DNA from: a virus
Reading direction: 5' to 3' (one strand)
IMG/VR virus record: IMGVR_UViG_3300039106_000063
Location: 1-20,814 of that record
Length of the DNA: 20,814 bases
A program made the translations under genes and the position numbers. The notes beneath the pieces are model-generated. The model searched no databases. It had not been told where the DNA came from and worked only from the letters and a program-made list of their open reading frames with translations. Positions 10,069 through 14,514 of the stretch are shown one piece after another (the first letter of the stretch is position 1; every line of letters starts with the position of its first letter).

Positions 10069-10220
10069 TGGATTCTTTCGATAGGCTTTGCTACAAGCCA
10101 CTTGTCACCCAACTGGCGTACTGACTTCACCCATTGCTTTTGGTAGCTTCTAATGACCTGTGGAGGGGCATCGTAAGTGCGAAATATCTTACGGACATGA
10201 GTTAGATAGTGTGTGTTCAT
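10065..10220 (-). CDS. Small basic conserved phage protein (51 aa)
   Basis: Frame from ATG 10220 to TGA 10067-10065. It reads MNTHYLTHVRKIFRTYDAPP, then SYQKQWVKSVRQLGDKWLVAKPIERIQ. The stretch W-V-K-S-V-R-x-L-G-D-K-W-L resembles a small family seen in other phage early operons. Net charge is strongly positive. It overlaps the upstream gene by one base (TAATG) and the downstream gene by 4 (ATGA), so it is clearly part of a translationally coupled operon. Function unknown; nucleic acid binding would suit its charge. Confidence 0.65.
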   Translation of the reverse strand: MNTHYLTHVRKIFRTYDAPPQVIRSYQKQWVKSVRQLGDKWLVAKPIERIQ

Positions 10221-10312
10221 TAGCCTCTCCAAGCCAGTAGTACACCGATACCGCCAAAGATAACGATGGCTAACACATACTCAACTAGCGTCTGAATAAT
10301 CTTACTTTTCAT
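10220..10312 (-). CDS. Single-span membrane mini-protein, first gene of leftward operon (30 aa)
   Basis: MKSKIIQTLVEYVLAIVIFG ... ends LLAWRG: a short charged N-terminus, one membrane helix of about 20 residues and a basic end. AAGGAA (rc of 10319-10324) lies 6 bases before the ATG. It follows directly after the conserved promoter-leader and is the first product of the early leftward transcript. Stop and next start share one base (TAATG). A tiny membrane protein made early could modify the host envelope, but no function is known. Confidence 0.6.
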   Translation of the reverse strand: MKSKIIQTLVEYVLAIVIFGGIGVLLAWRG

Positions 10313-10393
10313 CTTGATTTCCTTAAAAATACCCACTTACGTTTTGTTGTGGGCTGAGTGCAGTATAGCAAAGTAAACAGACTATTGTCTAGG
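10313..10393 (-). promoter_or_regulatory. Leftward early promoter with conserved 5' leader
   Basis: On the minus strand: -35 TAGACA (rc of 10386-10391; 5/6 match to TTGACA), an 18-base spacer, and an extended -10 TGCTATACT (TATACT is rc of 10362-10367). The transcript would start near 10355 and carry a leader of about 45 bases, with a possible CCCAC/GTGGG hairpin and AAGGAA before the first ATG. Promoter, spacing and leader are repeated at 13584-13661 on the other strand. Confidence 0.65.
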
Positions 10394-10400
10394 TGCTTTC

Positions 10401-10439
10401 CCTAAGTCAACATTTTGTTGATTTTGCTATACTTCTTGG
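10401..10439 (+). promoter_or_regulatory. Promoter of the cro-like gene with palindromic operator
   Basis: Extended -10 TGCTATACT (TATACT at 10428-10433), the same element as in the leftward promoter; no good -35 is seen. A perfect inverted repeat, TCAACA-TTT-TGTTGA (10407-10421), fills the spacer and is a natural operator for a dimeric Cro-like protein. The ATG at 10440 is only 6 bases after the -10, so transcription should begin at or next to the start codon. Confidence 0.55.
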
Positions 10440-10592
10440 ATGGACAAACAAACTGCTATCACACTTGCTGGCTCACAGAGTGAGCTTGCTAGAATCCTCG
10501 GCATAACTAGGGCTGCTGTCTTTTTATGGAAGAAAGTTCCCCAGTTACGCATTTATCAACTAAAAGAACTCAGACCAGAGTGGTTCAAATGA
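10440..10592 (+). CDS. Cro-like transcriptional regulator (50 aa)
   Basis: Frame from ATG 10440 to TGA 10590-10592. It reads MDKQTAITLAGSQSELARIL, then GITRAAVFLWKKVPQLRIYQ and LKELRPEWFK. Residues 12-31 form a helix-turn-helix (SELARILGITRAAVFLWKK), and the ending R-x-x-Q-L-K-x-L-R-P-E-W-F is typical of DicC/Cro-type mini-repressors. The protein probably binds the palindrome in its own promoter and may also control the divergent leftward promoter. There is no ribosome binding site; the predicted mRNA is leaderless. The stop overlaps the next ATG by 4 bases. No CI-type partner is visible. Confidence 0.8.
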   Translation: MDKQTAITLAGSQSELARILGITRAAVFLWKKVPQLRIYQLKELRPEWFK

Positions 10593-10968: not shown

Positions 10969-11036
10969 GAAACACGGCTAGGTACGAAGTCATGAGCGTA
11001 CCGAAAAGGGTTCACCCTTTCCCCTGCCGAGGTTTC
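10969..11036 (+). ncRNA. Three-way-junction leader RNA, C4-like candidate
   Basis: A 68-nt element whose ends pair: GAAAC-A-CGGC (10969-10978) with GCCG-AG-GTTTC (11026-11036). Inside are two perfect hairpins: GGTACG (10981-10986) with CGTACC (10997-11002), loop of 10; and AAAGGG (11005-11010) with CCCTTT (11015-11020), loop TTCA. TTCACC (11011-11016) is complementary to GGTGAA (11059-11064) just before the next start codon, and CCCTTT is complementary to AAAGGG at 11042-11047. This self-complementary design resembles phage C4 antisense RNA (from memory). It begins at the predicted transcription start. Not a tRNA: no anticodon or T-arm geometry. Confidence 0.6.
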
Positions 11037-11063
11037 TTTCCAAAGGGCGTTATAAAGCGGTGA
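10992..11063 (+). CDS. Possible upstream leader ORF (23 aa)
   Basis: An ATG in the loop of the first hairpin opens a 23-codon frame (MSVPKRVHPFPCRGFFPKGV ... IKR) ending in TGA at 11061-11063, 4 bases before the replication gene start. That distance would allow translational coupling. No good ribosome binding site precedes it. It may be translated as a leader peptide or simply be an accident of the RNA structure. Confidence 0.25.
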   Translation: MSVPKRVHPFPCRGFFPKGVIKR

Positions 11064-11067
11064 AATT

Positions 11068-11781
11068 ATGCTATTACAGCCAAAGAATTGGGCAGTCTTT
11101 CAACATTACAAAGACAGATGCCCTCCGTGGATAAAACTACATCGTGACCTGTTAAACGATAGGTCTTATATGCGCTTGCCTATTGCTAGCAAAGCACTAG
11201 CACCTATGCTCTGGTTGCTTGCAAGTGAATCAAAAGATGGTGTTTTTGATGGCTCACTAGATGAGCTAGTCTTTCGTCTGCACATTACCAAAAAAGAATA
11301 TCAAGATGGAATCAAGCCATTGATTGATAACGACTTTTTCATACTTGTTAGCGGAGTGCTAGCAGAACGCAAGCAAGATGCTATCCCAGAGACAGAGGGA
11401 GAGAGAGAGGGAGAGACAGAGAAAGAGACAGATACGCCAGAAGGCGTTTCAATTGAAGTTTGGGATTCTTTTGTCAAACAAAGAAAAGCACGAAAGGCTC
11501 AGATTACTGAACGAGTAATGAAGTCAATCCGAGAGCAAGCAAAAATTGCAGGTTGGACTCTGGATAACGCTTTAAACGAAATTGTTGTTCGTAACTGGCA
11601 AACATTTAAATCTGATTGGGTTGCTGTTAAACCAAACCCTGCCGACAGAGTGAGGCTCACAGTTGCGCCATCAAATGAGCCTGACCCTACATTGTTAAAA
11701 ATTAAAGAAGATGATTTAAAGGCATCTCGTCCATCGTTAGAAACTTTGGCAAAGATGGCTGAAATAAGGAGAAAAGCATGA
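11068..11781 (+). CDS. Replication initiator, lambda O / helix-turn-helix type (237 aa)
   Basis: The N-terminal domain (residues 1-95) reads FQHYKDRCPPWIKLHRDLLN ... LPIASKALAPMLWLLASES ... FDGSLDELVFRL ... KPLIDNDFF, a winged-helix module frequent in phage replication proteins. A repetitive Glu/Thr linker follows (TEGEREGETEKETD, about 108-122), then a helical C-terminal domain (VWDSFVKQRKARKAQIT ... EIVVRNWQTFKSDWV) typical of O-like or DnaT-like helicase-loading proteins. The start at ATG 11068 lies 4 bases after the leader ORF stop, with GGTGA as a weak ribosome binding site. Expression is probably controlled by the structured leader. It overlaps the methyltransferase by 4 bases. Confidence 0.75.
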   Translation: MLLQPKNWAVFQHYKDRCPPWIKLHRDLLNDRSYMRLPIASKALAPMLWLLASESKDGVFDGSLDELVFRLHITKKEYQDGIKPLIDNDFFILVSGVLAERKQDAIPETEGEREGETEKETDTPEGVSIEVWDSFVKQRKARKAQITERVMKSIREQAKIAGWTLDNALNEIVVRNWQTFKSDWVAVKPNPADRVRLTVAPSNEPDPTLLKIKEDDLKASRPSLETLAKMAEIRRKA

Positions 11782-13571: not shown

Positions 13572-13583
13572 TTAGGGAAAGTA

Positions 13584-13661
13584 CCTAGTAGATATTGTGT
13601 TTAGTTTGCTATACTTACGTCAGCCCAAGCAATTCGCAAGGGTACTTTTAAGGAATAAATC
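13584..13661 (+). promoter_or_regulatory. Second copy of the conserved promoter-leader
   Basis: Extended -10 TGCTATACT (TATACT at 13610-13615), and CCTAG 26 bases upstream of the -10, exactly as in the leftward promoter at 10393. The leader shares TCAGCCCA and a GGGTA-TTTTAAGGAA ending with it, supplying the ribosome binding site for the gene at 13662. No good -35 hexamer is seen. Confidence 0.6.
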
Positions 13662-13907
13662 ATGAAATACGAATTTGACACAACAACTGGTGAAGGCTCT
13701 GTAATCGTTACTGTCGTGATGGAATACGAGCGTGACGAAGAAGGTACTTACAACGAGAACATTGATGAAGTCTGGTTTGAAGGACGTAACGTCATGGGCA
13801 TCTTTACTGACCAGCAGTTTAAAGAGTTAGAGATTGAGGGCTGTATGCGTCTTGCAAAGCACATCTTGGAACAGGCAGATGAAGCCAAGATAGCAACTTA
13901 TGAGTAA
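13662..13907 (+). CDS. Small acidic protein, unrecognised (81 aa)
   Basis: Starts MKYEFDTTTGEGSVIVTVVM with alternating hydrophobic strands, then an acidic stretch (EYERDEEGTYNENIDEVWFE) and a C-terminal helix (QFKELEIEGCMRLAKHILEQ). Predicted alpha/beta, net negative. AAGGAA lies 8 bases before the ATG. It has its own promoter-leader, a copy of that driving the early leftward operon, so it is probably made early and strongly. An acidic small early protein could be a DNA mimic or an inhibitor of a host enzyme, but nothing in the sequence proves that. Confidence 0.7.
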   Translation: MKYEFDTTTGEGSVIVTVVMEYERDEEGTYNENIDEVWFEGRNVMGIFTDQQFKELEIEGCMRLAKHILEQADEAKIATYE

Positions 13908-13986
13908 GACTTGGAAGTTAATTCTTATTTCACTAGCGACTTTTTGGTCGCTGGTGGTTTATTTCATAAGGGTTTGGTATGACTAG
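13900..13986 (+). CDS. Possible membrane mini-protein (28 aa)
   Basis: Frame MSKTWKLILISLATFWSLVV ... ends FIRVWYD: positive N-terminus, one membrane helix, short tail. It overlaps the preceding gene by 8 bases and the following gene by 8. It fills the only gap in an otherwise gapless operon, which supports it, but there is no strong ribosome binding site. Confidence 0.45.
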   Translation: MSKTWKLILISLATFWSLVVYFIRVWYD

Positions 13987-14487: not shown

Positions 14488-14514
14488 AGAGAGATTTGCG
14501 TCTCTCTTTTTTTT
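14488..14514 (+). terminator. Rho-independent terminator
   Basis: AGAGAGA (14488-14494), loop TTTGCG, TCTCTCT (14501-14507), then a T tract through 14514: a perfect 7-bp stem followed by eight T. It ends the replication/recombination operon 28 bases after the last stop codon. Confidence 0.85.

Follow-up and report, generated by a model that had tools for sequence, protein, structure and literature searches.

Why should a phage carry what looks like one promoter and 5′ leader twice, on opposite strands, ahead of two different operons? The question is raised by a virus record of 20,814 bases, which was analysed whole and is referred to below as the window.

The paired leaders and a third promoter

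The leftward leader (10405-10313, minus strand) and the rightward leader (13572-13661) align locally over about 88 nt with a score of 79, the best score in 60 Markov-shuffled windows being 33, and a repeat search of the window returns the pair as 56-nt arms of 80% identity. In both, CCTAG (10393-10389, minus; 13584-13588, plus) is followed after 16 nt by TTTGCTATACT, then by TCAGCCCA and GGGTA.TTTTAAGGAA (10334-10319, minus; 13640-13655, plus); the -10 lies 49 nt from the ATG in the leftward leader and 46 nt in the rightward one. The sequence-only reading had described the same promoter and leader used twice on opposite strands, and every element and spacing that it gave is exact. The match continues upstream of CCTAG as TTAGGGAAAGYACCTAG, which includes a palindrome and has two matches, a number reached in 0 of 100 shuffles. 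TTTGCTATACT alone is an extended -10 and is not rare, with 7 matches in the window at two mismatches against 9.4 expected; it is the entire ordered set of elements, not TTTGCTATACT by itself, that exceeds chance.

That reading had also called for a search for further copies. The search yields a third promoter copy that it had missed, this one with no hairpin leader: TTTGCTATACT recurs exactly at 10423-10433 (plus), 6 nt ahead of the ATG of the Cro-like ORF. We refer to this promoter as pR, to the leftward one as pL (extended -10 at 10372-10362, minus, with a -35-like TAGACA and an 18-nt spacer) and to the rightward one as pX (extended -10 at 13605-13615, plus). The usual distance from the -10 would put the start of transcription at the A directly 5′ of GCCC, and we infer that A10355 and A13622 are the starts at pL and pX; the -10 hexamer is 6 nt from this presumed +1 in most pL and pX units. 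A hairpin would then begin at +2 of each predicted transcript (GCCCACAACAAAACGTAAGTGGGT, 10331-10354, minus, at pL; GCCCAAGCAATTCGCAAGGGT, 13623-13643, plus, at pX), a position that, if the predicted start is right, would be within the few nucleotides of the 5′ end expected of an mRNA-stabilising stem-loop. At pR the cro ATG follows the -10 hexamer by 5-6 nt in 55/55 cases, and the cro mRNA is therefore predicted to be leaderless.

All 24 distinct leader hairpins are fully paired, and two inner pairs covary with a score that none of 500 shuffles reached. The outer pairs are invariant in this set as the units were picked by AGCCC...GGGT. In a search anchored on cro alone, the hairpin was found at the same place in 70/70 cases, six with an altered outer sequence (for example AACCCGC...GCGGGC), and three of these six carry a further A-T to G-C change. 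We base the case for the hairpin on covariation because folding of single sequences is only moderately better than that of shuffles (z -2.5 and -1.3). The loop occurs as AATTC, AAAAC, AAATC, AGATC, ACTTT and GAATT, and the hairpin is retained when the type of Cro and operator changes. It had been proposed that an RNA-binding protein recognises the leader; the stem is indeed conserved and covarying, but since the loop varies and the hairpin survives exchange of the regulator, a protein that reads the loop seems unlikely.

Operators and the type of Cro

Two palindromes recur around the promoters, A (TAGGTRTAAACACCTA or TAGGGAAAGYACCTA) and B (TCAACANNNTGTTGA and variants). The window has A sites at 10390-10404 (TAGGGAAAGCACCTA, read on the minus strand), between the divergent pL and pR, and at 13573-13587 (TAGGGAAAGTACCTA), upstream of pX; a B-type palindrome, TCAACATTTTGTTGA, lies at 10407-10421 directly upstream of the pR extended -10, and many relatives have the same site. 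The distance from the A site to the -10 at pX, pL and pR is 22-25, 32-34 or 42-43 nt, and no other. We note that two relatives (L015, 1418-1463; L022, 3186) have A-like palindromes in tandem pairs in the pL-pR interval, one example being TAGGGTTTGTCCTA beside the usual one.

The Cro-like repressor gene (10440-10592, plus; 50 aa) belongs to the P22_Cro family, its product scoring 37.9 bits against PF14549 where the curated cut-off is 30.2; it also matches a solved Cro chain, 1rzs, weakly (phmmer, E 0.008). We call genomes with this Cro class I. In class II genomes another small helix-turn-helix (HTH) gene stands in place of cro, A is absent from the pL-pR interval, and both this interval and pX have B-like sites; promoters that have lost A persist and retain the leader. 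TCAACANNNTGTTGA or a close variant is present at pX in 9/10 class II and 8/53 class I genomes (Fisher 9e-6), so that the tracking is imperfect, and a wider definition of B gives 10/11 against 12/62. In a tree built from the 400 nt that precede pX, Cro type is scattered, with 9 changes against 9.6 in shuffles, and the pX operator follows Cro type in 6.0 of 7 independent pairs, with 0.2 against (median p 0.03). Because Cro type is scattered on the tree and the pairs agree, descent of the neighbouring DNA does not explain the link between operator and Cro. Full loss of A goes in the same direction in the independent-pair test and is not significant (median p 0.125).

A coordinated regulon with a phage-specific operator had been suggested from the two leaders. 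A palindrome common to three promoters, of a type that follows the type of Cro, fits that suggestion and supports a single Cro-controlled early regulon, with Cro presumably acting at all three promoters. The winged-HTH (wHTH) gene that follows cro was considered as the source of the A-site binder and rejected, since some genomes of the two operator classes have nearly the same version of it. As a separate observation, the class II genomes examined (the 3344 region of L004, L017, L122 and others) have a gene for a small cysteine-rich protein (MSKLCADCNQEI...) between cro and the wHTH gene; this gene is not in the window.

First genes, their exchange and the phages that carry them

Conservation in related phages, set beforehand as a test of the duplicated leader, was borne out: the module is present in over 100 contigs from related aquatic phages. 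In the virus collection, a pattern scan matched the unit in at least 119 stretches, and among the matches listed the 33-nt leader is identical in 95 of 107 distinct downstream units; most letters of the leader were already set by the scan pattern, but loci found solely through the 81-aa ORF behind pX agree with this. Homologues of this ORF gave 80 loci, in which the leader precedes the ORF almost letter for letter where no gene intervenes. The sole leader match in the bacterial and archaeal genome collection (L192) is ordinary sequence of a Clostridia metagenome-assembled genome with no such promoter, and we regard it as chance. The nearest terminases are those of Manatee Spring podovirus (64%) and Methylophilales phage Venkman (61%), followed by HTVC010P-type pelagiphages (about 45%); in Venkman and ctXG6705 (terminase 61-64%) the corresponding places have no such leader or A site.

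The left operon encodes, in order, a 30-aa protein that is probably a single-helix membrane protein (10220-10312, minus), a Sak-like annealing protein, SSB and a MazG-like protein. The right operon encodes Cro, the wHTH protein, an O-like replication protein, a methylase and a ninB-like protein, after which come pX and the 81-aa ORF (13662-13907, plus). About 91 nt separate the pL leader from the cro ATG, with no repressor gene there, and no integrase (PF00589) was found in 10 contigs of 32-37 kb, all controls being positive; a lytic lifestyle is likely. Several other features of the region deserve mention. The Rfam int-alpA RNA (RF02996) scores above its gathering threshold at 10971-11047 (plus), between the wHTH and replication genes, and is absent at that threshold from the six relatives searched. 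A purine-rich AGAGACAGAGGGAGAG repeat at 11388-11432 (plus), within the O-like replication gene, is possibly an origin with iterons, and a strong terminator-like hairpin with a long T-run at 14488-14507 (plus) is probably the end of the pX operon. A 28-aa peptide, probably a single-helix membrane peptide, is encoded at 13900-13986 (plus), overlapping the end of the 81-aa ORF; it is apparently conserved in relatives despite changed DNA and resembles the 30-aa membrane protein first behind pL.

Each leader ends in TTTTAAGGA (10320-10328, minus, at pL; 13646-13654, plus, at pX), which would serve both as ribosome-binding site and as the joint to a gene cassette; elsewhere in the window the usual ribosome site differs from it. 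In the window both slots are empty and the leaders directly precede the core genes, that of the 30-aa protein at pL and the 81-aa ORF at pX. Across the relatives, 11 families of first gene are found behind pX and 13 behind pL, and five are common to both, on opposite strands. Alignments of the shared cassettes show a similar gene body between slot-specific flanks, with the break at TTTTAAGGA. The spacer from Shine-Dalgarno sequence to ATG travels with the gene in several cases, the stop codon TAA belongs to the TTTTAAGGA joint in some cassettes, and the similarity of some takes in their own 3′ hairpin, GGGG.CTTAGT.CCCC; of 33 distinct hairpins at cassette ends (GGGG.C.TAGT.CCCC), 31 stand ahead of TTTTAAGGA. 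A fresh search with a cassette of the largest shared family placed it at pL in four contigs, at pX in four and outside these leaders in four (12 contigs), and a second cassette turned up at pL in two cases and at pX in one. Neither Pfam nor PHROG gives a significant match for the cassette proteins tested. The contigs are metagenomic and fragmentary, so gene order could be hidden; the swaps recur in independent contigs.

As judged from these alignments, small genes are shown to have been exchanged between the slots during phage evolution. This exchange lay beyond the view of the sequence-only reading and is the most informative part of the analysis. We read the two leaders as interchangeable early-gene slots, which is new here. 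Because both leaders end in the same joint, cassettes can sit behind either. First early genes tend to include proteins directed against the host or its defences, as in the case of T7 gene 0.3. We see an even chance that the leaders are matched expression sockets: the joint of hairpin and TTTTAAGGA would let a large aquatic phage population move one-gene cassettes between the two regulated early sites, which face opposite ways on the two strands, and so maintain a standing pool of first-expressed genes, perhaps for host takeover or counter-defence.

A two-part early module and its place among known systems

We suggest, as the probable reading, a two-part early module that is present twice: a Cro-controlled operator-promoter, and a leader of hairpin and TTTTAAGGA with exchangeable first genes. 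The upstream part, common to pL, pR and pX, would consist of palindromic operators and a host-type promoter with an extended -10, pX being a third early promoter at which, past the ninB-like gene, a new operon begins. Most likely, the P22-Cro-like protein expressed from pR binds the operators and lowers the three promoters together after a first burst; repression by Cro is assumed here from its family. The downstream part would be a short 5′-terminal hairpin on the pL and pX transcripts and, behind it, the fixed, U-rich TTTTAAGGA; the two most likely protect the 5′ end and give strong translation of the first gene, whatever that gene is. The identical joint at both leaders would let one-gene cassettes fit first behind either, through recombination at the joint, perhaps by means of the annealing protein of the phage.

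The sequence-only reading had also offered a phage-specific activator. The A palindrome might instead bind an activator, either the phage Cro or a factor of the host, by which RNA polymerase would be brought to all three promoters. The centre of the site falls at about -42, -52 or -62, positions that differ by full turns of the helix, and the -35 hexamers are poor where A is nearest; both would also fit an activator. On the other hand, A lies over or next to the -35, where repressor sites lie too, and it disappears with the class I Cro, which is P22-Cro-like. An extended -10 can do without a -35, and the class II promoters outlast A with their leader in place; we consider activation unlikely, though the most serious of the alternatives. 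More doubtful still is the idea that the leader is an antitermination signal that modifies the polymerase, like lambda nut or HK022 put. The same RNA hairpin opens two early operons on opposite strands, and its GCCC/GGGT stem has a superficial likeness to boxB. Such elements are recognised by an RNA family model or a conserved protein-binding loop, but an Rfam search finds no known element at the leaders and the loop is not conserved; the pR transcript, that of a long early operon, is predicted to be leaderless and to have no hairpin. A terminator after the 81-aa ORF (13930-13957) would have favoured antitermination, but this terminator-like hairpin near the start of pX falls inside the conserved frame of the 28-aa membrane peptide. 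Least probable, to the point of being hardly credible, is a simple duplication of the promoter region with no shared function, which chance has preserved and recombination has kept uniform. The 80% identity of the arms and the free recombination among phages of this group are compatible with it; against it, many genomes in which both places are covered retain the two copies, the hairpin changes are compensatory and the operators switch in coordination.

The proposed module offers AGCCC-hairpin-GGGT-TTTTAAGGA as a sequence handle with which to list the first-expressed accessory genes of abundant, mostly uncultured freshwater phages, and it provides natural replicates in which repressor and operators have been exchanged at three promoters together.

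Parts of the module have counterparts elsewhere. The ompA mRNA of Escherichia coli has a stabilising stem-loop at its extreme 5′ end with a single-stranded ribosome site behind it. The order of 5′-terminal hairpin and ribosome site would be the same here, in leaders of phage origin that serve two operons with changeable cargo from a predicted start. The promoter early stem-loops (PeSLs) of T4-type phages (Arbiol 2010, Comeau 2014) are repeated motifs of promoter and stem-loop linked to shuffling of neighbouring genes (as cited in PMC4503421). The shuffling of adjacent genes is shared, with five families behind both leaders; PeSLs differ in occupying many intergenic places, where we find two fixed leader copies that appear operator-controlled, with the hairpin in the 5′ leader and no direct T-run, and with a joint that is the ribosome site. 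Cluster K mycobacteriophages have start-associated sequences, SAS and ESAS: the 13-bp SAS, GGGATAGGAGCCC, stands at translation starts in 11-19 copies, about half of them with an inverted repeat just upstream, and ESAS stays with particular gene families (PMC3203893). A conserved sequence at the translation start is common to both systems, but here the sequence is another, there are two copies, and the families change between and within slots. Phage PY54 has been shown by experiment to make a leaderless cro mRNA and to have a 16-bp palindromic Cro operator (PMC4488713). Our leaderless cro, predicted from sequence, resembles it; PY54, however, is temperate and has cI, and the passages of its description that we consulted mention no hairpin leaders like these.

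The arrangement also compares with the early region of lambdoid phages such as P22 and lambda, which likewise have a divergent pL and pR with shared operators, the Cro gene first behind pR, a left operon with a Sak-like annealing protein and SSB, and a right operon with O-like replication and ninB-like genes. Unlike the temperate lambdoid phages, the present ones have neither a repressor gene in the pL-pR interval nor an integrase in the 10 long contigs; they add a third early promoter, pX, that appears operator-controlled, a cro predicted to be leaderless, and hairpin leaders, which are confined to pL and pX. Their layout matches a lambdoid early region from which the lysogeny genes are missing.
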